From the NCBI GenBank assembly GCA_022822085.1, contig JAJECK010000112.1:1-32184 (forward strand): a DNA stretch of 32,184 nt, in the 5' to 3' direction. A program made the position numbers and the translations under genes. The notes under the pieces were generated by a model. It saw nothing but the letters and a program-made list of their open reading frames with translations, was not told the DNA's origin and searched no databases. Numbering within the stretch: position 1 is the stretch's first letter; every line of letters begins with the position of its first letter. This document shows positions 467-27,310 of this stretch, piece by piece. This stretch comes from Candidatus Poribacteria bacterium (GTDB taxonomy: Bacteria; Poribacteria; WGA-4E; WGA-3G).

Positions 467-1042
467 ATGCTGATTAAACCCGCATACAAGAATCAATACC
501 CTATGTTAAAAGCAATTACGAATAATGTTACCCGATGGGATACTGTGATATTCCACCGTATCTTTGGTTGGAGTGATACACGATTACTTAATCGCTCGTT
601 ACGAGTTATCTCTTGGAGTGCAAACGGATACCTATACCCGATTATTGTTTTATATATATATTTTGCTTTTGAAAGCACAGTGAGCAAACCTTTTCTACTG
701 TCTGCACTTGTTGCATTTCCTATAGAGAGGTGTCTATACCATCTTCTGAAACAGGCATTAAAACGAGACCGACCGTATAATAAAATTGATGATGTTCACT
801 TCCGTGTTAGACCACCAGATGAGTTTAGTTTTCCTTCAGGTCACACTACATCCGCATTTCTTATAATGACATTACTTTCAAATTTCTTTCATGTGCCTGC
901 AATCCAAGTTGGGACGTTTGCCTGGGCATCAATGGTAGGCGTTGCACGAGTATATCTTGGTGTACATTATCCAACTGATGTCCTTGCCGGGGCACTACTC
1001 GGTATCCTTACTGCTGAGATTGGGATGTGGTATGTAATTTAG
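467..1042 (+). CDS. PAP2-family membrane phosphatase
   Basis: This is an integral-membrane acid phosphatase of the PAP2 superfamily, whose members dephosphorylate lipid phosphates such as phosphatidic acid or undecaprenyl pyrophosphate. The three family motifs are complete: K95-x6-R102-P103 (KQALKRDRP), P123-S-G-H126 (PSGH) and R161-x5-H167-x3-D171, with the histidines and arginines expected for the phosphohistidine mechanism. About five hydrophobic segments surround them (roughly 54-68, 75-93, 128-141, 147-164 and 172-191). At 191 residues it is a normal short single-domain member. A second ATG at 503 (residue 13) is an equally good start, since neither has a clear Shine-Dalgarno sequence. 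The substrate cannot be told from sequence. The gene stands alone between repeats. Confidence 0.88.
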   Translation: MLIKPAYKNQYPMLKAITNNVTRWDTVIFHRIFGWSDTRLLNRSLRVISWSANGYLYPIIVLYIYFAFESTVSKPFLLSALVAFPIERCLYHLLKQALKRDRPYNKIDDVHFRVRPPDEFSFPSGHTTSAFLIMTLLSNFFHVPAIQVGTFAWASMVGVARVYLGVHYPTDVLAGALLGILTAEIGMWYVI

Positions 1043-1516
1043 TTCTGCCCAGCCTATAGTTGATTTAAGTGCAGTTTGTCAAACTCATTTCCATTTAACA
1101 AATTATCCAATTTCATATTCAAGTAGACAATAGTAAAGCATCTTATTATATGGCCACGTTGTCCCGTCCACTTTTAGTTTGCGGCTGAACCGGGACATAC
1201 TACAGTATATCTCATAAAATTATAATTTGACACCTTCATTGTAGGGGTGAGGTTACCTCGTTCCTATATAGAAAGGGTTCTTCTAAACGGGTGGGGAGAC
1301 CCCGCCCCTACAAGTGAATTATGAGATACGCTCTAATATTCTGTGCTACAACAGACACAGAAGTTTAGTCTTCTACCTTATTGATGTAACGTGTGTTTTA
1401 AGTCAATAATCTACCATACCCACCAACCTGTTTGCTTACGTATTTTACGACCAATATTCCGATTGACTGTGTAGTATTCCTTTTTACGAACAAGAATTAC
1501 TGCATCGCAAGAAATG
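1043..1516. other. Intergenic gap upstream of the WD40 relic
   Basis: No convincing gene. The gap contains a MITE-like inverted repeat at 1204-1332. A 46-codon minus-strand open frame at 1411-1551 has a plausible-looking composition but overlaps the WD40 relic and has no usual start or ribosome binding site, so it is not called. Confidence 0.5.
1204..1332. repeat. MITE-like element with nested inverted repeats
   Basis: Outer arms 1204-1219 (containing TATCTCATAA) and 1318-1332 (containing TTATGAGATA) are reverse complements with a few mismatches. Inside them, TTGTAGGGGTGAGG near 1239 pairs with CCCCGCCCCTACAAG near 1300-1314. Nested arms around a GC-richer core in AT-rich surroundings suggest a non-autonomous mobile or structured repeat. 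There is no coding frame. Confidence 0.6.
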
Positions 1517-1614
1517 ATATAGTGCCAACTTGAGCTTTCACCAAATGCCAACTTTTAGTCAGTGCTTGTCATGATGGCACTATCCTGATTTGGGATATGA
1601 CTCCTTATCTGTGA
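1517..1614 (+). pseudogene. Relic of the C-terminal blade of a seventh WD40 gene
   Basis: From 1573 to 1614 the frame reads DGTILIWDMTPYL and stop, matching the last 13 residues of the neighbouring array genes (DGTILLWDLTPYL at the end of the gene finishing at 8659). Going upstream, similarity continues at the DNA level to about 1517, through an AFSP-N-like turn and an LLVSAC-like strand. It is interrupted by what looks like a one-base loss near 1536-1540 and an in-frame TGA at 1531. No further upstream part of the gene is recognisable. The sequence after the stop also resembles the spacer after the gene ending at 14173, so this is the remnant of an array member that once preceded the gene at 1708. 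Confidence 0.8.
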
Positions 1615-1707
1615 TAATCAAAGAATCATTAAATACAAATTTACTTTTTTAAACTTTTTTCCCAAAAACCCTCCTCTATATATTAAAACTTGCTCAGGAA
1701 TTTGTTT
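1612..1707 (+). repeat. Upstream spacer duplicated with 14171-14262
   Basis: This 96-base spacer and the spacer at 14171-14262 share long matched blocks: CTTTTTTAAAC, TTTCCCAAAAAC, ATATATTAAAACT and AGGAATTTGT just before the start codon. Each copy follows a WD40 C terminus ending in YL-stop and precedes a type I sigma-WD40 gene. The pair marks a duplication whose left copy retains only the tail of the preceding gene. The conserved blocks may include the promoter, but I could not assign -35 and -10 boxes. The AGGA is the likely Shine-Dalgarno sequence. Confidence 0.65.
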
Positions 1708-4413
1708 ATGCACAACGATCTTCTTGCTTGCAGTAACCTAACAGATAAAGAATTGATTCACCTCGTCCAAAACCGGAATCAGGAGGCTTTTGCGGTGCTT
1801 ATTTCCCGTTGGACACCTCGGATTTGGGATGTTATTGTCGCCAACTCAAGACAAAGGCGAGATACTGAAGAAATTCAAAATGACATCTGGGTAGTTGTAT
1901 GGCAAAATATCAGAGAGCTCAGAAATGTTGATAGTTTTGGGGCTTGGTTACATCGTATTGCATATAACGAATGTAAGCGTTATTATACTTCGGCTCGTAA
2001 ATCACGTAATGAAATACCGCATCAACAGTCAGTGATAGTTGAACAGATAGATCAACATGCTGCAGCGCGGTATCGAGAGGTACAATTGATTGCTGACATA
2101 AAGGAAGCAGTCCATAACTTACCACAAAAGGTGCGTTCTGTAGCAGAATTGTTTTACATAGAATCGTGGCATATTAAAGAAATCGCGGCGGAGCTTAATC
2201 TCGCTATTGGTACAGTTAAAACAAAATTAAGAGAGGTCCGAAAACGCCTGCGTGAAGAATTTGATGTGGAACCGATAAGAGGAGAAGTTATGTCTTCAAA
2301 AAATGGTGTATCACACAGTCCAATGCAAATTGAGACAAAAAAAGCAAAACCAAGCCAAGTCCCCGCACTGCTGAATGTTGTTGCAAACGATCCTACAGGA
2401 AATACTTGGGCACTACCAGAGGGTGCAATTGTTAGACTTGGAAAAGGACACGCGGAAGATGTCAAACTTTCCCCCGATGGAACACATTTTGCTGTAGCCA
2501 CTACAATAGGGTTATGGTGGTATGATGTTTCCTCAATGTCGCCTATTTCTTTATGGGAACCGGGTAAGGGATACATCAATTCCATCCATTTTTCCCCTGA
2601 TGGTAAATGGGTCATCATATCTACTATATATGTTGGGAACAGTACCATCAAGGTAATGGATATTCAAAGCGGAGAGTGCATCATGCAGATTGACGATCAT
2701 GATGCCTATAGCGATCTTGCCTGTTCGTCAAATGGAAAATGGGTTGCGACAGCATCTAAGAAAGGCGTTGTAAAGGTGTTGGATATCCAAACTGGTGAGT
2801 GCCTTGCACAGATGGATCGTGGAGAACACAAATGGCAATCAAATGATATTTCCAAACTCCAATTTTCCCCGGATGGCAAATTACTTGCCGCTGCCGCAGG
2901 GAATCCAAACCTTTATTCAAACGACGAACTTTTAAACCCTGATACAGAAGGGCCTCAAGTTTATGTTTGGTGCCCTGAAACGGGTGAAGTGATACTCAAG
3001 TTTTCAGAACAAAATTTCACCTTTTCCTCGGACAGTCGCTTGTTAGCGGTTACATGTCCTGACGAAACCTTGAACGGTGACGAAAGCGTTGACCGTTGGG
3101 TTACAGTATGGGATTTAACATCGAGGGAACTCCTCACACAATTTACAGGACATGACGATTGGGTAGATGCTATCGCTTTTTCACCGTGTGGACAATTCGT
3201 TGCATCAAGTGACGGGGTCCTACGGGTATGGGATGTTGCAACAGGTTCAGAAAAGAAGGTTTTTCCTGACTTTCCTGACTTTAACAATTATTTCTACTCA
3301 TCGGAAGGACAACTGTTTGTAGTCATAATTACAAGTTCACCTAATTTGTCTATTGAGGTATGGAATGTAGAACATCGTGAAAAGATATTTGAGATATCTG
3401 ATATTGATGATGGTTTGGCATATTCTTTTGCCCGCGCCTATACACAACGATTGGTTAAAACAGCATCCTACAAACAGACAGATGCAAAAATTCCGGTATT
3501 CTCAACAGTGCGAGAACCTCAGTTTCCCCTATGGCTCGTGCTGCAGATAAATTGGTTGGATGACCAGACACTTGTGAGTAATGATGTCACAGGAATAGTA
3601 TTGTGGGATGTTGACAAGAAATGTTATCGAGATACAGTGTCCATAGATGGACGGACAGATGCTATTACCGTTTTACCTTCCGGTAAAATGCTGGTTTCTT
3701 ATTTTCCTGATGATAGGAAAGTGTGTGTTGCCAACATACCTGATCAGCAAATTGCTGAGTTCACTTTTCCTGATGAACTATTGGAATTGAATCGTTATCG
3801 TGCATTTGCACCGACTGGTGAGTATATTGCGACAGGAAGTAGTGAAGGTACAGTCTATGTGTGGGATCTCAAGCAATCTGATCACCCGATACGCCTCAAG
3901 GGACATACAGATTACATTTACAGGTGTACGTTTTCGTGGGATGGGAAACGACTCGTGAGTGGAGCAAGTGACAAGACTGCCCGTGTGTGGGATGTGGAAT
4001 TAGGGAAAGAAATTGCCAGATTACATATTAACGAGTCTGACACAGCGTGGGGATTTGTGTTCTCACCCTGTGGGAACCTTATCGCGGGTTCTTTGGATAA
4101 TGAGATACGTTTCTGGTGTGCTAAGCAGTTCGTAAAGGTCCGTTCAATACCGCAACCGGAAAAGAACAGGCAGACACATCCACTTGCATTTTCACCTTGT
4201 GGAAAGTATCTTGCAGCAGCGACTTGGTGGCAGGAGGATTCGGAAAATCTGGCAATTCGGATATGGGATGTTAATACAGGTGAACAAATTCATGCTTTCC
4301 AGGGACATAATTCACTCGTGCAATCGCTTGCGTTTTCCCCAAATGGCACAATGTTAGCGATTGGTTGTTGCAATGGCACAATCCTGGTGTGGGACTTAAA
4401 ACCGTATCTATAA
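1708..4413 (+). CDS. ECF sigma factor fused to a double WD40 propeller (type I)
   Basis: The 901-residue product has sigma region 2 at about 11-93 (core-binding and -10 recognition helices, ...DSFGAWLHRIAYNECKRYY) and region 4 at about 133-186 with a helix-turn-helix (IKEIAAELNLAIGTVKTKLR). A hydrophilic linker follows, then the propeller entry strand NTWALPEGAIVRLGKG near 232. I count 14 WD40-like blades, enough for two seven-bladed propellers, ending at the very C terminus in WDLKPYL. ECF-WD40 fusions are known from planctomycetes; the ligand is unknown. ATG 1708 is preferred over TTG 1690 because of the AGGAA spaced before it and alignment with the paralog at 14263. An internal Shine-Dalgarno and ATG sit at 2279-2292. 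Two propeller-only genes follow with gaps of 19 and 18 bases, so the three probably form an operon. No anti-sigma gene is adjacent. Confidence 0.9.
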   Translation: MHNDLLACSNLTDKELIHLVQNRNQEAFAVLISRWTPRIWDVIVANSRQRRDTEEIQNDIWVVVWQNIRELRNVDSFGAWLHRIAYNECKRYYTSARKSRNEIPHQQSVIVEQIDQHAAARYREVQLIADIKEAVHNLPQKVRSVAELFYIESWHIKEIAAELNLAIGTVKTKLREVRKRLREEFDVEPIRGEVMSSKNGVSHSPMQIETKKAKPSQVPALLNVVANDPTGNTWALPEGAIVRLGKGHAEDVKLSPDGTHFAVATTIGLWWYDVSSMSPISLWEPGKGYINSIHFSPDGKWVIISTIYVGNSTIKVMDIQSGECIMQIDDHDAYSDLACSSNGKWVATASKKGVVKVLDIQTGECLAQMDRGEHKWQSNDISKLQFSPDGKLLAAAAGNPNLYSNDELLNPDTEGPQVYVWCPETGEVILKFSEQNFTFSSDSRLLAVTCPDETLNGDESVDRWVTVWDLTSRELLTQFTGHDDWVDAIAFSPCGQFVASSDGVLRVWDVATGSEKKVFPDFPDFNNYFYSSEGQLFVVIITSSPNLSIEVWNVEHREKIFEISDIDDGLAYSFARAYTQRLVKTASYKQTDAKIPVFSTVREPQFPLWLVLQINWLDDQTLVSNDVTGIVLWDVDKKCYRDTVSIDGRTDAITVLPSGKMLVSYFPDDRKVCVANIPDQQIAEFTFPDELLELNRYRAFAPTGEYIATGSSEGTVYVWDLKQSDHPIRLKGHTDYIYRCTFSWDGKRLVSGASDKTARVWDVELGKEIARLHINESDTAWGFVFSPCGNLIAGSLDNEIRFWCAKQFVKVRSIPQPEKNRQTHPLAFSPCGKYLAAATWWQEDSENLAIRIWDVNTGEQIHAFQGHNSLVQSLAFSPNGTMLAIGCCNGTILVWDLKPYL
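2279..2292 (+). promoter_or_regulatory. Internal ribosome binding site and ATG at the sigma/propeller junction
   Basis: GAGGAG (2279-2284) stands five bases before an in-frame ATG (2290-2292, residue 195), just after sigma region 4. Initiation here would give a free type I propeller protein like the one encoded at 4433. The same arrangement occurs in all four fusions. Confidence 0.55.
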
Positions 4414-4432
4414 AAAACAAGGAGTAGACACA

Positions 4433-6490
4433 ATGCAAAACCGAAAACCCGCGGAGCTTAATGTTGTCCCAAACGATATAATTGGGAACACCTGGGCATT
4501 ACCACATGATGCAATTGCGCGATTTGGAATAGGGAACGAGAAGTCCGTTAGGCTTTCTCCCGATGGCAGGTATCTCGCCGTTGGCACTGGGATAGGTCTA
4601 TTGTGGTATGATACCACGTCTATGTTGCCGATTTCATTATGGGAAACCGAACGAGGACTAATTTCTTTTGTCGAATTCTCTCATGATGGCACACAGATTG
4701 TGATTGGCAATTGGGATGGTATCATAAAGGTCATGGATGTTCAAACCGCAGAATGTATTTATGAAATGGAAGTGCCATGTTTATATTTCACCTTATCATC
4801 AAACAACAAATGGATTGCAACTTCGGATGGGCAAGGAATGGTTAGAGTGTATGATATACACAACGATGAGCTTTTAGCACAGATGGATCTCGGAGAACAT
4901 AAATGGAAGACAAACGATATTTCTCAGCTTGAATTTTCACCAGATGGCAACCTCCTTGCTGCCGCAGCAAGATTCTGGGCTCCTGACGATGACCGTGTGC
5001 TTATCCCCGACAGAGAAGGCGAGCGAACATACCTTTGGAATCCAGAAACAGGGGAGGAAATTCTCAAGTTTGCAGGAAGAAATTTTGTCTTTTCGGCAGA
5101 TAGCTGTTTGTTGGCAGCCGCATCTCCTGATGATTCCCATTCCTCCAGTGATGTTAAGCGTATTGACCGCTGTGTGTCAGTGTGGGATATTAAAAACAAG
5201 GAACGTATTACCCACTTCACAGGACATACTGATTGGGTAGACTGGATCGCTTTTTCACCGTGTGGTAAGTTCATCGCATCATGCGATAAAACGCTGCGAG
5301 TATGGGAACTGGCAACCGGCACGCAAAAGATGGCGTATGAGAAGTGCTATGATTCCTTCTACTCCCCGGACGGTGTGTTATTTGGGTTTATATTTGTTTC
5401 CGATGATACTATAGAGGTTTGGAACATGGATTCTCAGCAAAAAGTGCTGGAACTACCTCAAAATATTAATTTTAAATTAGCAAAAGAGAGGGTTTTCACC
5501 TACATGCGAGAACATCAATTCCAAACCGCTGAAATAATTTCTAATGAACAAGCAAATAGCAAAAAGTGGACACTTCCAATAGAACATAGGATTCATTTTG
5601 CCACACCGGACCCGTTGGTTGTTTGGGTGGATGATGAGACACTTGCGAGTGGTAGTATTAGGCAAGGTATTGTGTTATGGGATATCGTGGAAAAACGGGT
5701 TCGAGAAAGATTCTTGAATGATGAATATATTCATGTTTTCACAGTTCTACCTGACGGTAAAATGTTAGCTGCCTTGGTTTGCTCTCAATACGAATCGACT
5801 AAGGTATGGGATGTTACAAATTCTGATAAACCTATCGCTGAGTTTAATTCAAATGTATGGTGGGAACGTCATCAAGCCTTCTCTCCCGCAGGTGATCGCA
5901 TGGCTGCAGGGAGTTGGGAAGAAGGTAAAGTGTATGTGTGGAATCTTGAGCAACCTGAGCATCCGATGCAACTTACGGGACATACAGATTCTATTGAGGT
6001 AGTGGCATTTTCCCCAAATGGAAAGATGCTTGCGAGCGGGGCATGGGACAACACTACACGTTTGTGGGATGTTACGTTGGGCAAAGAAATTGCCACATTG
6101 CCTACAGACGTGCCTCTGACAACAAGGGCAATAAAATTCTCGCCTTGTGGTAACACAATAGCTGGAGGATTGGGCAGCGAAATCCGTTTGTGGTGTACGG
6201 AGCAGCTTACAACATTACGCACAATACCACAACCAGACAACAACCAACGGACTTATGCACTCGCTTTTTCTCCGTGTGGCAATTATCTGGCATCGGGAAC
6301 TTGGTGGGAGAAAGGCATGCAAAAAATGGCTATCCGTATATGGGAGGTTGCTACAGGAGAGAATATCCGGACCTTTTGGGGGCATAACTCAGATGTACAA
6401 TCGCTTGCGTTTTCGCCAAACGGCACAATGCTGGCGAGTGGTGGTTTTGATGGCACTATCTTGGTGTGGGATTTGAAACCGTATCTATAG
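4433..6490 (+). CDS. Stand-alone double WD40 propeller protein (type I)
   Basis: This 685-residue protein lacks the sigma domain but otherwise parallels the C-terminal part of the gene at 1708. Entry strand NTWALPHDAIARFGIG lies at about 22-37. About 14 blades follow, with turns such as LSPDG, FSPDG and FSPCG and blade ends such as LWYD and VWD, and the C terminus is WDLKPYL. There is no signal peptide or membrane segment, so it should be cytoplasmic. AAGGAG (4419-4424) stands eight bases before the ATG and 6 bases after the stop of the preceding fusion, giving an operon-like gap of 19 bases. It may bind the same partner as the fused propeller, or titrate it; this is inference. WD40 proteins are scaffolds, and nothing suggests an enzyme. 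Confidence 0.88.
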   Translation: MQNRKPAELNVVPNDIIGNTWALPHDAIARFGIGNEKSVRLSPDGRYLAVGTGIGLLWYDTTSMLPISLWETERGLISFVEFSHDGTQIVIGNWDGIIKVMDVQTAECIYEMEVPCLYFTLSSNNKWIATSDGQGMVRVYDIHNDELLAQMDLGEHKWKTNDISQLEFSPDGNLLAAAARFWAPDDDRVLIPDREGERTYLWNPETGEEILKFAGRNFVFSADSCLLAAASPDDSHSSSDVKRIDRCVSVWDIKNKERITHFTGHTDWVDWIAFSPCGKFIASCDKTLRVWELATGTQKMAYEKCYDSFYSPDGVLFGFIFVSDDTIEVWNMDSQQKVLELPQNINFKLAKERVFTYMREHQFQTAEIISNEQANSKKWTLPIEHRIHFATPDPLVVWVDDETLASGSIRQGIVLWDIVEKRVRERFLNDEYIHVFTVLPDGKMLAALVCSQYESTKVWDVTNSDKPIAEFNSNVWWERHQAFSPAGDRMAAGSWEEGKVYVWNLEQPEHPMQLTGHTDSIEVVAFSPNGKMLASGAWDNTTRLWDVTLGKEIATLPTDVPLTTRAIKFSPCGNTIAGGLGSEIRLWCTEQLTTLRTIPQPDNNQRTYALAFSPCGNYLASGTWWEKGMQKMAIRIWEVATGENIRTFWGHNSDVQSLAFSPNGTMLASGGFDGTILVWDLKPYL

Positions 6491-6508
6491 AACACAAGGA
6501 GGTATTTA

Positions 6509-8659
6509 ATGAAAGATAAAAAAGCAATCACTCCCGTATCTGAAAGCATGGTTGGAGATGATGTAACAACCTGGGCACTCCCTGAAGGTACGATTGCCCG
6601 TTTAGGACGCGGTCGTAAACCTGATATCGCGTTCTCACCCGATGGTCAATATTTTGGCATCGGTACCTCATTAGGACTCTGGATGTATAACTTGGCAACA
6701 CTATCCCCTATTGCGCTATGGGAAACAGAAAGAGGCATGGTGGGTCGCATTGCATTTTCACCTAATGGAAGATGGATTGCCGCCAGCAATTCCGACAATA
6801 TTTTAAAAGTGTTGAATATCCAAAATGGTGCTTGCTTAATTCAAGTAGAGACAGAAGATTATATTACTGGGTTAACCTTTTCACATGATAATCACTACCT
6901 CGCTGCTGCTTATGCAAGTTCGTCAACTGTTGAAGTTTGGCGTTCAGAAACTGGCGAACCTGATGGACAATATTATACTGATACTGAAATAGCAGGCTTC
7001 CACAGACCAATTAGTATCTCTCCTGATTCGCAACTAATAGTATCTACAGGTAGTAGTGAAACGTACCATAATGCTGATGAAGTAGTTGTATGGGAAGTCG
7101 GAAAGGAGCAACAAATTGTTTCACTAAACGAACATCTTTCTCGGGTCTCAACGCTCTGTTTTTCACCGTGTGGGAAGTTCCTCGCCTCTGGTGGCGAAGA
7201 TGGCACAGTCTACATGTGGGATGTTAACACTTGGCAACAAGTCCGAAAATATACCGATTATGGTCACGTGTATCGTATTATTCCTTCTTGGACACCAGAC
7301 GGAATTCTACGCGCAGCGATTGTCCATTATGAAGATACCACTCCCGCCACTATATCTGTCTGTGACCTTGAAAGTAATGAGCAGCTTTACACCGATCAAG
7401 TATGGGGTAATACCGGGCAATTTTCCGATCCAGATGATTGGGGCAACACTGTCGTCCTTTCAGACGGTTCGCGCCTCGTATACGAAAGCCGACACGAATT
7501 TATCAACGTATGGACTTCTGACGATCCTGTCAAACGTCAATTCACGCATTCGCCTATCTCGTTTCCTGATTCTGCACATTTGCCTGTTGCGTTTCCTACT
7601 ACAGTTTTTTCAGATGACGGTAAAACATTAGCAGTAAAACATCATCATGAAGGTGTTATATTATGGGATATTGAAAGTAAACGTTCGCGTCCGGCAATTA
7701 AAGTGGAATCAGCAGGTAAAAATCAATTTGTCCATAAAACCGATAGCGGAAAACTTTATGTCACAAGTATCAAAGATGATAATGTTAAGCTTTGGGAAGC
7801 TGATGGGAATGGTATCCCTCTAATTGAAGGAACAGGACGCAAATATTGGAGTGCATTTCCTACCTTGGCACCGACAGGCACGCTTTTTGCTTACGCCGAT
7901 GAAGACGGCAACATAAAGGTGTGGGATGTGATAGAGGGTAAGCAACTATATAAATTGCCCCATCCTCTTATTGAAGATCATGAATTTTATGAAGAAGACG
8001 ATTTTTTTGATGAGGATGATGATTATATGGATGATGAAGAGGATGGTGACACTATCAAAACGGTGAAATTCAGTTATGATGGAAAGTTTCTCGCAAGTGA
8101 ATCAACCTATGGAGATGTGATAGTGTGGGACTTGAAACGCAGGAAGGTGATAGGTGCGTTTCCAAGTGGTATAGAACCATCAATCATAGGTTTTTCTCCG
8201 TGTGGACAGTACCTCGCTTGCAACGGAGATGAAATCTTGCTTTGGAACATTGCACAATGTAAACTACATAAGACCGGACTAAATCAAGGACCTTTCGAGT
8301 TTATTAATTTTTCTCCTGATGGACAGTATTTAGCTTGCAGCGGGGATGAAACGTTCTTATATAATCTGAAACAAGGTGAAATTCATGTGGTGTTGTCCGG
8401 ACTACAAGAGTGCAATCGTATGTATGCTGCCGCGTTTTCCTCTTGCAGTAGATATTTAGCTGCCGGTGCATGGTGGGAAGATGGTTTAGAGAAGATGCCG
8501 ATCTGTTTGTGGGAAGTAGAGACAGGTAAACATTTAACAACCTTTTGGGGACATCCAACAGATGTGCAAGCTCTTGCATTTTCCCCAGACAACACACTTT
8601 TAGCCAGTGCAAGTTATGATGGCACTATCCTGCTTTGGGATTTAACACCTTATCTTTGA
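6509..8659 (+). CDS. Stand-alone double WD40 propeller protein (type II)
   Basis: The 716-residue protein opens with TTWALPEGTIARLGRG (about 21-36) and is closest to the propellers of the type II fusions at 8846 and 11564, sharing FTHSPISF and the IEGTGRKYWSA region. I count 15 blade-like repeats, one more than its relatives: two neighbouring units (GQYLACNGDEILLWN and GQYLACSGDETFLYN, about 567-610) look like a recent blade duplication. A very acidic loop at about 489-511, rich in D and E, separates two blades. The C terminus is WDLTPYL. AAGGAGGT (6496-6503) stands five bases before the ATG and the gap to the previous gene is 18 bases, so it is probably the third gene of the 1708 operon despite belonging to the other subfamily. 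Cytoplasmic, ligand unknown. Confidence 0.88.
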   Translation: MKDKKAITPVSESMVGDDVTTWALPEGTIARLGRGRKPDIAFSPDGQYFGIGTSLGLWMYNLATLSPIALWETERGMVGRIAFSPNGRWIAASNSDNILKVLNIQNGACLIQVETEDYITGLTFSHDNHYLAAAYASSSTVEVWRSETGEPDGQYYTDTEIAGFHRPISISPDSQLIVSTGSSETYHNADEVVVWEVGKEQQIVSLNEHLSRVSTLCFSPCGKFLASGGEDGTVYMWDVNTWQQVRKYTDYGHVYRIIPSWTPDGILRAAIVHYEDTTPATISVCDLESNEQLYTDQVWGNTGQFSDPDDWGNTVVLSDGSRLVYESRHEFINVWTSDDPVKRQFTHSPISFPDSAHLPVAFPTTVFSDDGKTLAVKHHHEGVILWDIESKRSRPAIKVESAGKNQFVHKTDSGKLYVTSIKDDNVKLWEADGNGIPLIEGTGRKYWSAFPTLAPTGTLFAYADEDGNIKVWDVIEGKQLYKLPHPLIEDHEFYEEDDFFDEDDDYMDDEEDGDTIKTVKFSYDGKFLASESTYGDVIVWDLKRRKVIGAFPSGIEPSIIGFSPCGQYLACNGDEILLWNIAQCKLHKTGLNQGPFEFINFSPDGQYLACSGDETFLYNLKQGEIHVVLSGLQECNRMYAAAFSSCSRYLAAGAWWEDGLEKMPICLWEVETGKHLTTFWGHPTDVQALAFSPDNTLLASASYDGTILLWDLTPYL

Positions 8660-8777
8660 TTGTTTTATTGAATTGTCAATCCTCCTGTGTAAGCTCATAA
8701 AACAATTGTGTAAATGCGCTCTTCTAAATAACAGGATTATGGGCTAAACTATAAAATTCAATTGAATTATGCCAACC

Positions 8778-8839
8778 ATGCAACCTTTCCACCTCAAAAT
8801 CGCGTCATTAAATAATTGTAAGCACATGTTTTATGAGGT
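8778..8839 (+). promoter_or_regulatory. Duplicated promoter block with ECF-type motif, copy 1
   Basis: This 62-base block is identical to 11496-11558 except for one extra T in the latter. It contains GCAACC (8780-8785), a 17-base spacer and CGTC (8803-8806), resembling an ECF promoter with an AAC-containing -35 and a CGT -10, though the spacing is one or two bases longer than usual. The putative transcript start would lie about 30 bases before the ATG at 8846. GAGGTGAT is the ribosome binding site. Autoregulation by the encoded sigma is a reasonable inference. Confidence 0.5.
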
Positions 8840-8845
8840 GATCTA

Positions 8846-11455
8846 ATGGAAATAGACGACGTTCGATTGATTCAGGATATATTATCTGGTGATGAGACTG
8901 CCTTTAGCGTTTTAGTCAATAAATATCAAAAAAGCGTTCACGCCCTTGCATGGCGGAAAATCGGAGATTATCATATCGCTGAGGAAATCACGCAAGATAC
9001 CTTCCTGCAGGCATACGAAAAATTGCACACCCTAAAGGATCCGAATCAATTTGCTGGATGGCTCTATGTAATCGCTGATAGACGCTGCATTGCATGGCTG
9101 CGCAAGAAAAGACTGATGATGCAATCGCTGGAAATTACCAGTGAAGAAATACTGGAAAAAACCGCTTATGCCTACTATGTCGTGGAACAGCGTGAAGAAG
9201 CATCCGCAGAACGTCGTCGCGAAATCGTTGATAGTCTTTTGGAAAAGTTACCAGAGGCCGAACGCACAACGATGATCCTCCACTATCTCGGAGAATTGCC
9301 GTGTAAAGCAATAAGTAAGTATTTAGGTGTGTCTCTGAACACGGTAAAAAGTAGACTCAACCGAGCGCGAAATCGTTTAAAAATGGAAAAACCTATATTT
9401 CAAGATATCCTTGTTCAAGGACAAGGAGATAATTTTATGGAAAACCAAAAACCCCCAATTCCTATGCCAATAGGTTCATTTGAAGGTGATGCGACAACAT
9501 GGGCACTCCCTGAAGGCGCGATTGCGCGATTGGGGCGCGGAAGTGAACCTGCAATGGCGTTCTCACCTGATGGACAGTCCCTTGCAGTTGGCACCTGCCC
9601 AGGACTCTGGTTATATGACCTTGCAACACTTTCCCCTGTCGCACTTTGGGAGGCAGAACAAGGGTATGTCGAATCTGTTGCCTTTTCACCTAACGGAAAA
9701 TGGATAGCCGCCAGTTGTTCAGGTCGAATACTTAAGATTTTAGATGCCCAGAATGGCACTTGCTTGACTCAGGTCAAATTAGGGACTTTCGTAGAAGGCG
9801 TGACCTTTTCTCACGACAATAGGTATATCGCAGTTGCTTATTTTGCCTATGATGAGTCCCCTGACGTTGAAGTTTGGCATGCGGAAACCGGTAAGCCGTT
9901 TGCAAAATTCACTGCAGACGATGAAAGAGCGGGACATCATAGACCTATTTGTTTTTCGCCTGATACCCAATTGATTGTGTCTACGTGTATGTCTGCTACC
10001 TCTGATGATGCGGGGTCAATATTAGTGTGGGATATGAAAAGCGGCGAACAAATTGCGTGTCTCTCAGCACATACACGTTGGATAACATCTCTCTGCTTTT
10101 CACCTTGTGGACAGTTTCTCGTCTCTGGTGGTGAAGATAGAACAGTGTCCGTCTGGGATGTGGAAACGTGGCAACAAGTGAAGTGTTATACCGATTTTGG
10201 TAATGTATATCGAATTGTTCCATCTTGGACACCAGATGGAATTCTACGCGCAGCGATTGTCCATTATGACGAGACCGGGCCCGCTACTATCTCTATCCGT
10301 GACCTTGAAAGTAATGAGCAACTTTATAATGATCAAGTTTGGGGCAATACAATAGATTTTTCCTCCGCCAATAGTTGGGGAAACAATGTCCTGTTTTCAA
10401 ACGGTTCGCAACTTGCTTATGAATGCCGACATGAATTTATCAATGTATGGACTTCTGACAATCCAATCAAACGTCAATTTACACATTCACCTATCTCGTT
10501 TCCGGGAACGATTGTATTCTCCGAGGATGGTAAAACATTGGCTGCTGAATACTATCTTGAAGGTGTTCTGTTATGGGATATTGAAAGTAAACGTTCGCGT
10601 CCTGCGGTTCAAGTGGAATCTGCCGGAATAGATCAGTTTGTCTATAAAACCGATAGTGGTAAACTCCATGTCGCAAGTATCAAAAATGACACTGTTACCC
10701 TATGGGAAGCCGATGGGAATGGAGTCCCACTTATTGAAGGAACTGGTCGTGAATACTGGAGTGCATCTCCCGCATTAGCACCGACAGGGACGCTATTCGC
10801 TTATGCTGGTGAGGATGGCACCGTACAAGTGTGGGATGTGCAGAATGGAGAGAAACTTCATGAATTCAATCATCCTCTTGAACCATCTGATGACGACGAT
10901 GATGAAGATGAAGGTAATTTTGTTGATGAGTTGGAATTCAGTCCTGATGGAAAATTACTCGTAAGTGAATTAAAATCTCATCATGTCAAACTGTGGAACG
11001 TGGTACTTGGTGAAGAGATAAAACCGTTACCAGGTGATGAAATCACGGGAGTCCGATTTTGCAGGTGTGGACGGTACTATGCTTACTTGGGAAAAGAAGG
11101 AAAGCGTTACTGGGATATAACCCAGCGGGAATACTGTGAGGATGTAACCTGTTCGTGTGATCCGACATGGGGTGAAATAGAAAAAAGGCTGTCAATACCA
11201 CCCGAATTCGAACATTTTGAGGGTCCAGGAGCATATTCTTTGTGTGGACAATACAAGGCAATTAGAACATCGCACAAGGATTTAAAGAGTGAACCTATTG
11301 ATGTATGGGAAGTCGCGAGTGGTAAACATCTTGTCACTTTTAGCGGCCATGTCTCACGTGTGTTGGAACTCGCCTTTTCTCCAGACAACAAACTCTTAGC
11401 CAGTGCGAGTCATGGTGGTGCAATCCTGCTTTGGGATCTAACACCTTATCTATAG
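8846..11455 (+). CDS. ECF sigma factor fused to a double WD40 propeller (type II)
   Basis: The 869-residue product has an ECF region 2 at about 5-88 (ends ...FAGWLYVIADRRCIAWLRKK) and region 4 at about 131-180, with the helix-turn-helix CKAISKYLGVSLNTVKSRLN. The sigma part is clearly a different ECF family from that of the 1708 and 14263 genes. An in-frame Met at 198 with its own ribosome binding site marks the start of the propeller module. Entry strand TTWALPEGAIARLGRG is near 217. About 14 blades follow, with an acidic DDDDDEDE loop near 675-690, and the protein ends in WDLTPYL. The start is set by GAGGTGAT ahead of ATG 8846. It has its own promoter block and a 186-base gap upstream, so it is probably transcribed separately from the 6509 gene. 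The signal sensed is unknown. Confidence 0.9.
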   Translation: MEIDDVRLIQDILSGDETAFSVLVNKYQKSVHALAWRKIGDYHIAEEITQDTFLQAYEKLHTLKDPNQFAGWLYVIADRRCIAWLRKKRLMMQSLEITSEEILEKTAYAYYVVEQREEASAERRREIVDSLLEKLPEAERTTMILHYLGELPCKAISKYLGVSLNTVKSRLNRARNRLKMEKPIFQDILVQGQGDNFMENQKPPIPMPIGSFEGDATTWALPEGAIARLGRGSEPAMAFSPDGQSLAVGTCPGLWLYDLATLSPVALWEAEQGYVESVAFSPNGKWIAASCSGRILKILDAQNGTCLTQVKLGTFVEGVTFSHDNRYIAVAYFAYDESPDVEVWHAETGKPFAKFTADDERAGHHRPICFSPDTQLIVSTCMSATSDDAGSILVWDMKSGEQIACLSAHTRWITSLCFSPCGQFLVSGGEDRTVSVWDVETWQQVKCYTDFGNVYRIVPSWTPDGILRAAIVHYDETGPATISIRDLESNEQLYNDQVWGNTIDFSSANSWGNNVLFSNGSQLAYECRHEFINVWTSDNPIKRQFTHSPISFPGTIVFSEDGKTLAAEYYLEGVLLWDIESKRSRPAVQVESAGIDQFVYKTDSGKLHVASIKNDTVTLWEADGNGVPLIEGTGREYWSASPALAPTGTLFAYAGEDGTVQVWDVQNGEKLHEFNHPLEPSDDDDDEDEGNFVDELEFSPDGKLLVSELKSHHVKLWNVVLGEEIKPLPGDEITGVRFCRCGRYYAYLGKEGKRYWDITQREYCEDVTCSCDPTWGEIEKRLSIPPEFEHFEGPGAYSLCGQYKAIRTSHKDLKSEPIDVWEVASGKHLVTFSGHVSRVLELAFSPDNKLLASASHGGAILLWDLTPYL
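9423..9439 (+). promoter_or_regulatory. Internal ribosome binding site and ATG at the sigma/propeller junction
   Basis: AAGGAG (9423-9428) stands eight bases before an in-frame ATG (9437-9439, residue 198). The downstream protein MENQKPPIPMP... would be a free type II propeller of the same kind as the 6509 gene, whose own start has the same AAGGAG-ATG layout. Confidence 0.55.
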
Positions 11456-11495
11456 ATGTATTAGAATCCACATTAATTGCCAATATATATCAACG

Positions 11496-11558
11496 ATGCA
11501 ACCTTTCCACCTCAAAATCGCGTCATTAAATAATTGTAAGCACATGTTTTTATGAGGT
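11496..11558 (+). promoter_or_regulatory. Duplicated promoter block with ECF-type motif, copy 2
   Basis: Same block as at 8778-8839 apart from one additional T. GCAACC lies at 11498-11503 and CGTC at 11521-11524, again 17 bases apart. Flanks outside the block do not match well, so the identity is limited to this segment and the sigma coding region that follows, suggesting recent duplication, conversion or selection. TGAGGT serves as ribosome binding site. Confidence 0.5.
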
Positions 11559-11563
11559 TACTA

Positions 11564-14173
11564 ATGGAAAAAGACGACGTTCATCTGATTCAGCGTATAT
11601 TGACAGGTGACGAATCTGCCTTTAGCGTTTTAGTCAATAAATATCAGAAAAGCGTTCACGCCCTTGCATGGCGGAAAATCGGAGATTTCCATATTGCTGA
11701 GGAAATCGCGCAAGATACCTTCCTGCAGGCATACAAAAAATTGCACACCCTAAAGGATCCGAATCAATTTGCTGGATGGCTCTATGTAATCGCTGATCGA
11801 CGATGCATTGCATGGCTGCGCAAGAAAAGACTGATGATGCAATCGCTGGAAATTACCAGTGAAGAAATACTTGAAAAAACTGCTTATGCATCCTATTTGG
11901 CAGAACAACGTGAAAAAGCATCTGCTGAACGTCGTCGTGAAATCGTTGATAGCCTTCTGGAAAAGCTGCCAAATGCCGAACGCACAACGATGATCCTCCA
12001 CTATCTTGGAGAAATGCCGTGTAAAGCAATTAGTAAGTATTTAGGTGTATCTCTGAACACGGTAAAAAGTAGACTCAACCGAGCGCGAAACCGTTTAAAA
12101 AAGGAAGAACTCATATATATAGAGACCACTGATCAAAGACAAGGAGAGGACTTTATGGAAAACCAAAAACTGTCAATTCCTGTGCCAGTAGGTTCACTTG
12201 AAGGTGATGTACCAACTTGGGCACTCCCTGAAGGCGCAGTTGCTCGATTAGGGCGCGGAAGTGAACCTAAAATGGCGTTCTCACCTGATGGGCAGCACTT
12301 TCTCATTGGTACCTGTATAGGGCTCTGGTTATATGACCTCGCAACACTTTCCCCCATCGCACTTTGGGAGGCAGAACGTGGGGTTGTCGAATCTGTCGCC
12401 TTTTCACCTAACGGAAAGTGGATAGCCGCCAGTTTCTCAGGTCGAATACTTAAGATTTTGGATGTCCAGAACGGTACTTGCTTGACACAAGTCAAATTAG
12501 AAACTTACGTAGATAAAGTGACCTTTTCCCACGATAACCGGTATATTGCAGTTGCTTATTCTGGCTATAGCAGATCCCCTGTCGTTGAAGTTTGGCATGC
12601 GGAAACCGGTAAGCCGTATGCAAAATTCACTACTGACACTGAAAGAGGGGGGTTGTACCGCCCTCTTTGTTTCTCACCTGATACCCGACTAATAGCGTCT
12701 ATATGTAGAACCAATGCCGATGGGGAGGCAGAATCAATAATAGTGTGGAATATGAAAAGCGTTGAACAAATAGCATGCCTCTCAGCACATACCTATTGGG
12801 TAACGACCCTCTGCTTTTCACCGTGTGGGAAGTTCCTCGCCTCTGGTGGTGAAGATGGCACCGTGTACGTCTGGGATGTTAGGACTTGGCAACAAGTGAA
12901 GTGTTATACCGATTTTGGTCGTGTGTATCGCATTATGCCTTCTTGGACACCAGCTGGAATTCTCCGTGCAGCGATTGTCCGTTATGATGATACCGGTCCC
13001 GCTACTATCTCTGTCCGTGACCTTGAAAGTGACGAGCAACTTTATAATGATCAAGTTTGGGGCAATACAACAGATTTCTCCTACGTCGGTGATTGGGGCA
13101 ACACTGTCCTATTTACAAACGGTTCGCAACTTGCTTATGAACGCCGACACGAATTTATCAACGTGTGGACTTCTGATAACCCTGTTAAACGTCAATTTAC
13201 GCATTCACCTATCTCGTTTTCAAAATCAATGTTCTTCTCACAGGATGGAAAAACATTGGCGGTGGAGCATCACCATGAAAGTGTTGTGTTATGGGATATT
13301 GCAAGTAAACGTTCGCGTCCTGCGGTTAAAGTGGAATCTGCCGGGAAAAACCAGTTTGTCTATAAAACCAAGAACGGTATACTCCATGTCGCAAGTATCA
13401 AAGATGACACTGTTACCCTTTGGGAAGCTGATAGTGACGAGATGCCACTTATTGAAGCGACAGGACGAAAATACTGGAGTGCTTTTCCTGCATTAGCTCC
13501 AACAGGCACGCTTTTTGCTGCTGCTGACGAAGATGGCAACATTCAAGTGTGGGATGTGCAGAATGGAGAGCAACTTTATGAATTGGCACATCCCCTTGAG
13601 CCAAGTGATGACAACAATGATGAAGATGAAGGTGATTATGTTAGTGAGTTGGAATTCAGCCAGGATGGAAAATTACTTGTAAGTGAATCAAAGGCAAGAA
13701 ATGTTAGACTGTGGGACATGGAACTTGGTGAAAATATAGAATCGTTTCCAAGTGATGAAATCACGGGATTCCGATTTTGTGAGTGTGGACAGCACCTTGT
13801 TTGCTTTGGAGAAGAAGAAATCCCAAATTGGGATATCACCCACCGAGAATTCTGCGAGGATGATACATGCCTATATGAATCGAAAAAGTATAAAATTGAA
13901 AAGAGGCTGTCACTACCCCAAGAATGCGAATATATTGAAAAACCTATATTTACTACATGCGGACAGTACATTGCATGTATAACATCGTGGAACAAGATGA
14001 CTATGAATTTTCCTATCTGTCTGTTTGAAGTGGAGAATGGCAAACATCTTGTTACCTTTAGGGGACACACCACAGATGTGATGGCACTCGCCTTCTCTCC
14101 AGACAACACACTTTTAGCCAGTGCGAGTCATGATGGCACTATCCTCCTTTGGGATCTAACATCTTATCTGTGA
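11564..14173 (+). CDS. ECF sigma factor fused to a double WD40 propeller (type II)
   Basis: This is a close paralog of the 8846 gene and, from ATG 11564, exactly the same length (869 residues). The upstream ATG at 11552 overlaps the GAGGT ribosome binding site and is rejected. Region 2 is at about 5-88 and region 4 at about 131-180. In the first 180 residues only about 14 positions differ from the paralog, with both DNA-contacting segments almost unchanged. Entry strand PTWALPEGAVARLGRG follows an internal start at Met 198. The acidic loop reads DDNNDEDEGD. Blades 11-13 (about 700-825) differ strongly from the paralog, whereas the last blade (FSPDNTLLASASHDGTILLWD) is again conserved; the end is SYL instead of PYL. 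The pattern suggests one regulon read-out with a changed sensing surface. Confidence 0.9.
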   Translation: MEKDDVHLIQRILTGDESAFSVLVNKYQKSVHALAWRKIGDFHIAEEIAQDTFLQAYKKLHTLKDPNQFAGWLYVIADRRCIAWLRKKRLMMQSLEITSEEILEKTAYASYLAEQREKASAERRREIVDSLLEKLPNAERTTMILHYLGEMPCKAISKYLGVSLNTVKSRLNRARNRLKKEELIYIETTDQRQGEDFMENQKLSIPVPVGSLEGDVPTWALPEGAVARLGRGSEPKMAFSPDGQHFLIGTCIGLWLYDLATLSPIALWEAERGVVESVAFSPNGKWIAASFSGRILKILDVQNGTCLTQVKLETYVDKVTFSHDNRYIAVAYSGYSRSPVVEVWHAETGKPYAKFTTDTERGGLYRPLCFSPDTRLIASICRTNADGEAESIIVWNMKSVEQIACLSAHTYWVTTLCFSPCGKFLASGGEDGTVYVWDVRTWQQVKCYTDFGRVYRIMPSWTPAGILRAAIVRYDDTGPATISVRDLESDEQLYNDQVWGNTTDFSYVGDWGNTVLFTNGSQLAYERRHEFINVWTSDNPVKRQFTHSPISFSKSMFFSQDGKTLAVEHHHESVVLWDIASKRSRPAVKVESAGKNQFVYKTKNGILHVASIKDDTVTLWEADSDEMPLIEATGRKYWSAFPALAPTGTLFAAADEDGNIQVWDVQNGEQLYELAHPLEPSDDNNDEDEGDYVSELEFSQDGKLLVSESKARNVRLWDMELGENIESFPSDEITGFRFCECGQHLVCFGEEEIPNWDITHREFCEDDTCLYESKKYKIEKRLSLPQECEYIEKPIFTTCGQYIACITSWNKMTMNFPICLFEVENGKHLVTFRGHTTDVMALAFSPDNTLLASASHDGTILLWDLTSYL
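12141..12157 (+). promoter_or_regulatory. Internal ribosome binding site and ATG at the sigma/propeller junction
   Basis: AAGGAGAGG (12141-12149) precedes an in-frame ATG (12155-12157, residue 198), with eight bases between AAGGAG and ATG. The bases between sigma region 4 and this site differ from the 8846 paralog, yet the AAGGAG and ATG are retained. Confidence 0.55.
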
Positions 14174-14262
14174 TAGCCAATAATTCACAAAGATTTGACT
14201 TTTTTAAACCTATTTCCCAAAAACTCTCCTCCATATATTAAAACTGACATAGGAATTTGTCA
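14171..14262 (+). repeat. Upstream spacer duplicated with 1612-1707
   Basis: Second copy of the spacer described at 1612-1707, here between the intact WD40 gene ending at 14173 and the type I fusion at 14263. Shared blocks include TTTCCCAAAAAC and ATATATTAAAACT. AGGAATTTGT supplies the probable Shine-Dalgarno sequence. Confidence 0.65.
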
Positions 14263-16959
14263 ATGTCCAACAATTTTCCTGTTTTGAGTAAGTTAACAGA
14301 TGCTGAACTTATTCAGCTTGTACAAAACAGAAATGAAGCAGCGTTTGCGGAACTCATGGCGCGATATTCACCGCGAATTTGGGGAATAATTTCTGCCAAT
14401 TCCAGACAACGTCAAGACGCTGAAGAGATCCACACTGACATCTGGATTTCTGTATGGCAAAACATATCTGGATTGAAAAAAGTTGATAGTTTTGGTGCCT
14501 GGCTGCATCGCATTGCATACAACGCTTGTAAACGTTATTACACCTTGGCAAGACAATCACGAAGTGAAATCCCACATCTACATTCTGATATAATTGAACA
14601 TATAGACCAGGAAGCTGCACCTCGGTTTAGAAAGGCGCAATTAATTGCTGATGCAAAAGAAGCTGTTCATCACCTTCCACAAAAGGTGCGTTCTGTGGCA
14701 GAATTGTATTACTTAGAATCGTGGAATGTCAAGGACATTGCAGCTGAGTTCACTTTGACCGAAGGAACAGTGAAAACAAAATTAAGGGAAACCCGCGAAC
14801 TCTTGCGCAAGGAATTTGGTGTAGATCCATCAAGAGGAGGAAAAATGGCTAAAAATACAGAGCGAACACATCAATCAATTAAGTCAAATCATGGAGTGAC
14901 ACATAATACAAGACCTAAAGTGCTAAACATAATAGCAGACGATCCCACAGGAAATACTTGGGCTCTACCAGAGGACGGAATTGTCCGATTTGGAAAAGGT
15001 GATATACAGGATATCAAACTTTCACCCGATGGTTCGCATATTGCTGTAGGCACGGGGATGGGATTGTGGTGGTATGATGTTGCATCAATGTTACCAATCT
15101 CGTATTGGGATCCAGGTCCTGGAAACATCGGTTCAGTTTCGTTTTCACATGATGGTAAGTTAATCGTTATAGATACTGTAGACAATGTCCTCAAGTTTCT
15201 GGATGTCCAGAGTGGAGAGTGTATTCTCGAAATAGCAGATCAAGATGCCTACGGTAAACTTGCATGCTCTTCAAATGGCAAATGGGTTGCTGCTGCTGAA
15301 GGGGATGGTATTGTTACAGTTTTAGATATTCAGAATGGGACCCGTATCGCACAGATGGATCGTGGAAAATATGAATGGAGATCGAATGATATATGGCAAC
15401 TTGAGTTTTCACCAGATGGCAACTTACTCGCAGCGACTGCTGCAAATTCAAAACTGTATAATGACGATGATGTATGCCTGAATCCTGATACAGAAGGCAC
15501 GCAGACTTATGTTTGGGATCCCAAAACGAGTAAGCAAATTATCAAATTTGCTGGTAGGGAATTTGTTTTTTCTTCAGATAGTCGTTTGATAGCTGGAGCA
15601 GCTGCCGACGAAACCTTGAAAAATGACAAACGTATTGACAGTTGTGTGTCTGTATGGGATATAACATCTGGAGAACAGATAGCACATTTTTCAGGACATG
15701 AGGATTGGGTTGATGCGGTCACTATTTCACCGTGTGGACAATTCGTTGCATCAAGTGCAAGGGATGGTACATTACGAGTCTGGAATCTCGAAAAGGATTC
15801 ACAGATAATGGAATATCCTAACTATGACGATCCATTTTACACAGAAGATGGCAGATTGTTGGCATTAGTCTATCTTAGTTCCTCCAACACGATTGAAGTA
15901 TGGAATGTTGAAGATAGAGATAAGTTACTTGAGATATCTGTGGGTATAGGAAGATATGATCTTGCAAAATCTATAGCCATTGCTTCTGCAAAACAATTGC
16001 CAAATTCCTCACGCATCAAACATACCGATGATGGAATTCCATCTTTCTCTATAGTCCGTGAGCCAGAGTTCCCATGGCCTTCCCCAAAGGTGATGTGGGT
16101 GGATGAGCGAACGCTTGCAAGCACAATTATCAATAACGGAATTATGTTATGGGATATTAAAGACAAATGCAGGAAGGATCCAGTATTGGAAAATGAATGG
16201 GTACATCATTTCACTGTTTTACCTTCTGGAAAGATACTTGCAATGGACTATGATGATGTAACAAAGATATGGGATGTCAATAATCCTGGAAAAACTATGG
16301 TAGAGATCAATGCATCTTCTGTGCCAACGGAGTGGTACCATCCTTGTGTATTTGCACCAACTGGAGATCAACTCGCAGTTGGAGGAAAAAATGGCACAGT
16401 GTATGTGTGGAAATTTGAAACCCCTGAGAGACCGATATTGCTTTCTGGACACAATGATGAAATTATGACATTAGCATTTTCACCGGATGGCAAGACAATT
16501 GTGAGTGGGTCAAAGGATAACACGGCAAGGGTATGGGATGTTGATATGGGTGAGGACATTGCAGAATTACTTATGGAAACACCAAGAGAGCCTTTAGACA
16601 TAGTATTTTCTCCGTGTGGCAATCTGATTGCAGGTGAATTAGATAAAGAAATCCGTTTGTGGCGTGCAAACGATTTTACAACTGTTCGCGTCCTGCCTCA
16701 AAATGAAGTCTACCGTAGGACATATCCATTGACATTTTCACCGTGCAGTAAGTTTCTTGCAGGTGCAACTTGGTGGAATGATGGATGGGATAATTTGGCT
16801 ATACGAATATGGGATGTCCCCTCAGGTGAACAAATTCATGCATTTAGAGGACACAATACAAGCGTGCAATCAATGGCTTTCTCACCAGAGGGCACAATGC
16901 TTGCTACAGGTTGCAGGAATGGTACAATTCTTGTATGGGATTGTAAACCTTATCTATAA
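14263..16959 (+). CDS. ECF sigma factor fused to a double WD40 propeller (type I)
   Basis: The 898-residue paralog of the 1708 gene has region 2 at about 8-92 (...DSFGAWLHRIAYNACKRYY), region 4 at about 133-186 (VKDIAAEFTLTEGTVKTKLR), an internal start at Met 195, entry strand NTWALPEDGIVRFGKG near 232 and 14 blades ending in WDCKPYL. Start ATG 14263 is preferred over the TTG at 14257, which lies inside the AGGAATTTGT leader. Parts of the propeller share long identical DNA with the 1708 gene: for example a run near 15727-15760 matches 3179-3212, encoding SPCGQFVASS. It is the last gene of the array; a weak hairpin-like sequence (CTATA-CCC / GGGTATAG) overlaps its stop codon but lacks a proper T tract. 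Cytoplasmic; signal unknown. Confidence 0.9.
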   Translation: MSNNFPVLSKLTDAELIQLVQNRNEAAFAELMARYSPRIWGIISANSRQRQDAEEIHTDIWISVWQNISGLKKVDSFGAWLHRIAYNACKRYYTLARQSRSEIPHLHSDIIEHIDQEAAPRFRKAQLIADAKEAVHHLPQKVRSVAELYYLESWNVKDIAAEFTLTEGTVKTKLRETRELLRKEFGVDPSRGGKMAKNTERTHQSIKSNHGVTHNTRPKVLNIIADDPTGNTWALPEDGIVRFGKGDIQDIKLSPDGSHIAVGTGMGLWWYDVASMLPISYWDPGPGNIGSVSFSHDGKLIVIDTVDNVLKFLDVQSGECILEIADQDAYGKLACSSNGKWVAAAEGDGIVTVLDIQNGTRIAQMDRGKYEWRSNDIWQLEFSPDGNLLAATAANSKLYNDDDVCLNPDTEGTQTYVWDPKTSKQIIKFAGREFVFSSDSRLIAGAAADETLKNDKRIDSCVSVWDITSGEQIAHFSGHEDWVDAVTISPCGQFVASSARDGTLRVWNLEKDSQIMEYPNYDDPFYTEDGRLLALVYLSSSNTIEVWNVEDRDKLLEISVGIGRYDLAKSIAIASAKQLPNSSRIKHTDDGIPSFSIVREPEFPWPSPKVMWVDERTLASTIINNGIMLWDIKDKCRKDPVLENEWVHHFTVLPSGKILAMDYDDVTKIWDVNNPGKTMVEINASSVPTEWYHPCVFAPTGDQLAVGGKNGTVYVWKFETPERPILLSGHNDEIMTLAFSPDGKTIVSGSKDNTARVWDVDMGEDIAELLMETPREPLDIVFSPCGNLIAGELDKEIRLWRANDFTTVRVLPQNEVYRRTYPLTFSPCSKFLAGATWWNDGWDNLAIRIWDVPSGEQIHAFRGHNTSVQSMAFSPEGTMLATGCRNGTILVWDCKPYL
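14835..14847 (+). promoter_or_regulatory. Internal ribosome binding site and ATG at the sigma/propeller junction
   Basis: AGGAGG (14835-14840), a full-strength Shine-Dalgarno, precedes an in-frame ATG (14845-14847, residue 195) by four bases. It is the best match of the four internal sites, though the spacing is short. Confidence 0.55.
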
Positions 16960-26717: not shown

Positions 26718-27299
26718 ATGGACAAAATGATTGACGACGAAATGCTGGTAGCTCAATTCAAATCTGGAAGCCAAAGGGCTTTTGATGAATTAATGAAACG
26801 TTACCAACGAAAAATATTTGGATATCTTCTTCGTTCAGTCCGAAATTATGAAGATGCCGAAGAGTTAACACTTGAAGTATTTTTCAAAGCCTATCGGGCA
26901 CTCGGTTCTTGGGAACCGAAAGCGAAGTTTTCCACCTGGTTGTACACAATAGCTTCAAACCTATCCATAGATTATCATCGAGCAAAAGCTCGACAACCAG
27001 TCTACATATTAGAAGATGAAGAAGCAATTGAAACGAAACTTGTTGCAACTGACATCTCAAGTAACCCTGAGAAACAACTTGAAGACAAAGAACGAGGACG
27101 GCTCATCAGAGAAGCGGTAGATGAGCTCTCCGCAAAGCAAAAAACAGTGTTTATGTTAGCTCGATATGAAGGTATGCAGATAAAAGAGGTAGCTGAAACA
27201 TTGGGAATGGCTGAAGGCACTGTAAAGATTCATTTACATCGTGCGATCAAAAAATTACAGACTTTACTAAGACCTTTATGGGAAAATAATGAAATATAG
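26718..27299 (+). CDS. ECF-type RNA polymerase sigma factor (stand-alone)
   Basis: The 193-residue sigma-70 family protein has region 2 at about 10-90 (AFDELMKRYQRKIFGYLLR, EDAEELTLEVFFKAYRAL, FSTWLYTIASNLSIDYHR) and region 4 at about 130-183 with the helix-turn-helix IKEVAETLGMAEGTVKIHLH. Length is normal for an ECF sigma, without any C-terminal extension, unlike the four WD40-fused sigmas at the other end of the window. The downstream gene begins 11 bases later, its AGGAGGT overlapping this stop codon, and encodes a zinc-finger anti-sigma. The pair is therefore a conventional membrane-stress-type module. It directs RNA polymerase to a regulon that probably includes its own operon. Confidence 0.93.
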   Translation: MDKMIDDEMLVAQFKSGSQRAFDELMKRYQRKIFGYLLRSVRNYEDAEELTLEVFFKAYRALGSWEPKAKFSTWLYTIASNLSIDYHRAKARQPVYILEDEEAIETKLVATDISSNPEKQLEDKERGRLIREAVDELSAKQKTVFMLARYEGMQIKEVAETLGMAEGTVKIHLHRAIKKLQTLLRPLWENNEI

Positions 27300-27310
27300 G
27301 AGGTAATTTG

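Follow-up and report, generated by a model that had tools for sequence, protein, structure and literature searches.

In Streptomyces, the anti-sigma factor RsrA is translated from its own ribosome binding site (RBS), which is located inside sigR; about half of this translation is independent of that of the sigma factor, RsrA is in excess, and a similar RBS is present in 15 of 16 other sigma/anti-sigma operons (PMC5472188). ECF sigma factors with C-terminal extensions are also known, and one group, ECF57, carries WD40-like repeats together with conserved cysteines that link sigma2 and sigma4 (PMC8999054). Pairs of N-terminal proteoforms arising from internal starts have been described for bacterial proteins such as CheA-S, IF2, ClpB, and MrcB (PMC11005335).

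The window analyzed here is a stretch of 32,184 nucleotides from a Candidatus Poribacteria bacterium. It contains a cluster of six consecutive WD40 genes, four of which have an N-terminal ECF sigma domain and two of which have none (Table 1). The sigma domains belong to two families that share approximately 25% identity: family B in the fusions starting at 1708 and 14263, and family A, which is SigW-like (NCBIfam), in those starting at 8846 and 11564. The two family-A fusions are paralogs, with sigma parts that are 87% identical. In all four proteins Sigma70_r2 and Sigma70_r4_2 score above the Pfam cut-off, as does the NCBIfam sigma70-ECF superfamily model above its own, and regions 1 and 3 are absent, as is typical of ECF sigma factors. 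In place of the ORF starts listed at 1690, 11552, and 14257, the true ones are probably 1708, 11564, and 14263, which have better start contexts; the start at 1708 has a weak Shine-Dalgarno sequence (SD), AGGAATTTG (-4.3). Here and below, SD strength is given as the energy of the duplex with the anti-SD in kcal/mol, and SDs in the window ORFs were regarded as strong at dG <= -8.

Table 1. Sigma and WD40 genes of the window and the start signals at their domain junctions (SD energies in kcal/mol).
Feature	Position	Strand	SD or start	dG	Remarks
Sigma family B-WD40 fusion	1708..4410, stop codon to 4413	+			Pfam Sigma70_r2/r4_2, WD40 propeller
Internal SD and ATG	2278..2292	+	AGAGGAG, ATG 2290	-9.1	
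Stand-alone WD40 gene, B-type propeller without sigma	4414..6490	+	CAAGGAG, ATG 4433	-8.0	
Stand-alone WD40 gene, A-type propeller without sigma	6494..8659	+	AAGGAGG, ATG 6509	-12.7	
Sigma family A (SigW-like)-WD40 fusion	8846..11452, stop codon to 11455	+	own start	-6.9	Pfam/NCBIfam
Internal SD and ATG	9421..9439	+	CAAGGAG, ATG 9437	-8.5	
Sigma family A-WD40 fusion	11564..14170, stop codon to 14173	+	probable start ATG 11564	-6.3	
Internal SD and ATG	12139..12157	+	CAAGGAGAGG, ATG 12155	-8.5	
Sigma family B-WD40 fusion	14263..16956, stop codon to 16959	+	own start	-4.2	AlphaFold2 model
Internal SD and ATG	14832..14847	+	AAGAGGAGG, ATG 14845	-11.4	Disordered sigma/propeller linker
Ordinary ECF sigma gene	26718..27299	+			Next gene at most 12 bases on, ATG 27311, SD -11.5

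The first-pass annotation had pointed to an in-frame ATG with an SD at the sigma/propeller junction of each fusion, and to a start signal of like kind at the two stand-alone propeller genes; all of these are present, the junction ATGs being preceded by AGAGGAG, AAGGAG, AAGGAG, and AGAGGAGG. The four fusion ORFs contain 8, 9, 14, and 15 in-frame ATGs; the junction ATG ranks first for its SD in every case and is the only one with a value of -8 or below. Away from the junctions, none of 3101 windows of 20 codons contained an ATG with an SD of this strength. The four sites fall into two pairs of paralogs and hence do not represent four independent events. The placement of the ATG between region 4 and the entry strand of the propeller is borne out for 14845 by an AlphaFold2 model of the 14263 protein, in which the last sigma helix ends at residue 185, the first propeller strand begins at 239, and the ATG corresponds to residue 195 within the intervening disordered linker (~186-238). 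Thus, the short product starting at 14845 would be a complete propeller protein.

In this respect the fusions resemble operons of the SigR-RsrA type: the RBS and start of the putative regulator lie at the 3' end of an ECF-type sigma gene, the sigma start is the weaker one, and the regulator may be in excess. The difference is that no stop codon intervenes, so that the regulator would also be made covalently fused to sigma. ECF57 has in common with the fusions an ECF sigma with a C-terminal WD40 part and a proposed control by protein interaction, a likeness that concerns domain architecture only; the available excerpts of its description do not mention an internal start at the junction (PMC8999054). 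As in CheA-S, IF2, ClpB, and MrcB, one ORF has two in-frame starts and the shorter product would be without the N-terminal part. Those are individual genes, however, whereas the fusions comprise two sigma families and many partners across a phylum, and are split cleanly at a domain border. A search of open papers found nothing on sigma-WD40 fusions of Poribacteria, nor a WD40 or other ECF extension combined with an internal start phylum-wide across unrelated partners.

The survey of related proteins covered 202 non-identical fusions from the genome of the window, 39 relatives, and named genome contigs. The window's own genome alone encodes approximately 45 family-A and 8 family-B fusions. Every one of the 88 family-B fusions carries an in-frame start at the junction, which is ATG except for GTG in two orthologs, irrespective of whether the partner is a WD40 propeller, an FtsZ-like GTPase, or an FtsZ-like GTPase plus a full DnaE. 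Their junction SDs have a median of -8.3, with 91% at -6.5 or below, compared with a median of -1.9 and 4.8% for the other in-frame ATGs of the same ORFs. The ten direct WD40 fusions of family A are less uniform (SD strong in seven, weakened in two, and lost in one), and direct fusions of this family with a DnaN-like clamp, a crystallin-like domain, or unnamed domains carry a start signal at the junction too. In the membrane-anchored class of family A, with a transmembrane (TM) linker, a strong SD where region 4 ends (AAGGAGGAA, then ATG) is present in 14 of 18 members with the Met and 4 of 26 without (Fisher p = 5e-5). Order-level relatives (L112, L118) retain the signal. The first-pass annotation had proposed to ask whether homologs routinely lack it, and they do so rarely: a two-codon deletion has removed the SD (-0.9) and left the ATG in a family-A WD40 fusion of G012 (L068/L295, G012:C164), and the SD is weakened to -5.5 in L061 and L065. 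Taken as genes with internal starts, the fusions thus have an in-frame start codon and an SD that are conserved in homologs.

Two further observations concern these fusions. Next to the G012 fusion with the lost SD lie two stand-alone propellers. In membrane-type fusions (e.g., L006 and L057), another type of candidate internal start is present where region 4 ends, namely AAGGAGGAA-N3-ATG; initiation there would free a membrane anti-sigma-like protein.

Conservation at the junction extends beyond coding need. Among 34 diverged family-B representatives (<75% identical), a variety of peptides spells out the SD, among them IRGEV, SRGGK, YGGN, KEGVN, QQGDI, IEGAT, KGERT, and IRRNT. Nevertheless, Arg just upstream of the junction start is encoded by AGA or AGG in 25 of 25 instances (29% elsewhere) and Gly by GGA or GGG in 36 of 38 (48% elsewhere). 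As a control, those columns of these sigma domains in which Arg or Gly is conserved show 27% AGR and 31% GGR, with the caveat that single conserved Arg columns of sigma are mostly AGR (one 0.91, one 0.65). The binomial p-values for the Arg and Gly bias, 4e-14 and 9e-10, ignore relatedness and are too small because the sequences are related; they are strong but not to be taken literally. When amino acids were held fixed and codons resampled, p fell below 0.05 at only 19% of single junctions, with a median of 0.2, since the peptide by itself accounts for much of the SD; for this reason the codon-by-codon test with the conserved-column control was used. The suggestion that the signal is conserved beyond synonymous expectation therefore holds collectively, across junctions, and rarely for single ones, and the fixed-amino-acid test is the weakest part of the case.

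The start codon itself also varies. The junction Met is replaced by a GTG-encoded Val in L284/L285 (AGGAGGAAAACAGTG), GTG stands where relatives have ATG in L148/L153/L155/L157, and GTG is also found in L005/L244 and L267. An exchange of ATG for GTG is expected of a start codon, not of a Met residue as such. RNA structure around the junction is also weaker (-6.6 vs -10.2 kcal/mol, p = 1e-7).

Four WD40 orthologs of the A type have no working sigma, and yet each retains an intact propeller ORF that runs on from the junction ATG, to the extent that it could be followed. Their upstream regions differ: a sigma pseudogene that has lost a large internal segment and carries a TGA in frame (L297, G009), sigma fragments out of frame with the propeller (L299, G015), approximately 44 bases of homology upstream of the junction ATG (L298, G001), and approximately 18 such bases (L318, at another locus of the window's own genome). 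Clear decay of sigma is seen in the first two only; the other two might, in principle, never have had one. The full propellers of G009 and G015 have 672 codons each, like the window's, and a mutual dN/dS of 0.16, and in the propeller tree the sigma-less forms are scattered among the fused ones. Of all the evidence at hand, these orthologs argue most strongly for a functional start at the junction.

FtsZ-like GTPases without sigma occur as well (L268 in G010, L269 in G002). They begin at the residue equivalent to the junction, behind weak SDs (-3.9 and -4.5), and a short stretch upstream, GAGGTCGAACC, resembles the C-terminus of sigma family B.

Both halves of the fusions are under purifying selection, with dN/dS values of 0.12-0.21 for the sigma domains and 0.22-0.38 for the propellers, while the linker is looser. 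Between the 1708 and 14263 fusions, whose linkers are saturated, dS is 1.0-1.3 and linker dN 0.71. All differences in linker length within family B are in frame. Low dN/dS on either side of a linker whose indels stay in frame argues that selection has maintained the fusion and the internal start alike, and both the full fusion and the free propeller appear to matter.

The first-pass annotation had left two possibilities: fusions of recent date, with nothing but a stop codon lost, or two products from one ORF. The codon bias, the ATG/GTG exchanges, the reduced RNA structure, and the sigma-less orthologs that use the same ATG favor the latter, and it is very likely that each fusion gene makes the full fusion and, in addition, the second protein alone. 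Initiation at the junction is well supported by these comparisons. The explanation that we find best, and consider probable as a whole, is that each ORF has retained an internal start and yields two products, the free regulator buffering the tethered sigma.

We suggest that a sigma-WD40 ORF is a nested, in-frame gene pair. The upstream, weaker start would produce a full-length ECF sigma tethered to its own propeller, and independent ribosome entry at the SD and ATG (or GTG) of the linker would produce the complete propeller alone. Such a pair may have originated from a sigma/regulator operon in which the 3' end of the sigma gene harbored the start signal of the regulator; the stop would have been lost and the start kept by selection. 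Loss of the stop is a plausible origin because the ordinary ECF sigma gene at 26718-27299 and the gene starting at 27311 have just this geometry, with the stop codon present. As the internal SD of family B is, on average, stronger than that of the sigma start (-8.7 vs -3.9), the free regulator would be favored. We infer that it is probably in excess of the tethered sigma and that it may buffer sigma, either through binding in trans or through competition for the ligand or partner that activates sigma, comparable to the excess of RsrA over SigR.

The same features might be read with a different emphasis. The two products could be real, with the free propeller as the main worker that has a job of its own, and the sigma fusion an autoregulatory minority, without any inhibition. 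The persistence of sigma-less propeller orthologs under purifying selection, the stand-alone propellers at 4433 and 6509 in the same cluster, and the greater strength of the internal start all fit this reading, but it leaves the strong conservation of the fused sigma to be accounted for, and the design is shared by FtsZ-like, DnaE, DnaN-like, and TM partners, which suits a rule of sigma control better. We regard it as a tentative alternative that deserves consideration.

A passive remnant, i.e. recent fusion by loss of a stop codon with the old start signal of the regulator still decaying, is improbable. The pair at 26718-27311, with its stop in place, makes an origin by stop loss plausible, and decay does occur, as in the G012 fusion. 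However, the junction start has been kept across genomes, genera, and families, up to order-level relatives, between linkers that have diverged to saturation; codons that preserve the SD are preferred, and ATG has been swapped for GTG only. The idea of recent fusions that merely lost a stop is thus not supported. Ribosomes are proposed to be slowed by SD-like stretches within coding sequence, and the amino acid sequence accounts for some of the SD, but a programmed pause that aids co-translational folding at the border between the domains, or an effect of a conserved linker peptide, with the ATG incidental, is very improbable, given that start codon and spacing are kept together with the SD, that different peptides write the same SD, that strong SDs in the TM-linker class go mostly with Met, and that the reduced RNA structure fits initiation.

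On a wider scale, the partners of the ECF sigma module range from WD40, FtsZ-like, and FtsZ-like plus DnaE to DnaN-like, membrane, and crystallin-like proteins. We lean somewhat towards the view that the ECF sigma is an optional N-terminal module across the phylum, fused in frame to unrelated partners of which nearly all keep their own start, in a general two-product design for setting how much free regulator there is relative to tethered sigma. Such a design would be a natural answer to the problem of keeping a fused sigma off, by means of excess regulator, and in sponge-symbiont Poribacteria the free second protein could set how easily sigma switches on. Gene finders annotate the fusion ORFs as single proteins. 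Should free regulator make up much of what is produced, errors would follow in one-component models of sigma control, in counts of proteins, and in any heterologous expression. The dozens of diverged natural variants, sigma-less ones included, offer material for testing selection on the sigma:regulator ratio.

Some of the partners are of interest in themselves. An ORF of approximately 1450 codons encodes an ECF sigma, an FtsZ-like GTPase with FtsZ_C, and a full DnaE (PHP, alpha NTPase, finger, HHH), for example at 854-5203 on the minus strand of L274 and also in L273, L275-L279, L289, and L290; it is found once in many of these genomes, alongside normal dnaE and ftsZ. In L142, L147, L156, and L161 an ECF sigma is joined to a DnaN-like sliding clamp (approximately 365 residues) whose own Met coincides with an SD and ATG, and normal dnaN is encoded elsewhere, often in 2-3 copies per genome. 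The possibility that FtsZ, DnaE, or DnaN exists solely as a sigma fusion, which would force internal initiation, was rejected, as nearly all genomes have separate stand-alone copies. L168 and L169, which are sigma-B-like with a stop at the junction, were considered as unfused ancestors and discarded, there being no partner downstream. Elsewhere in the window, two adjacent ORFs of equal length (23096-23941 and 24111-24959, 282 amino acids each), the first with a CBM9-like domain, are probably a tandem duplicate.
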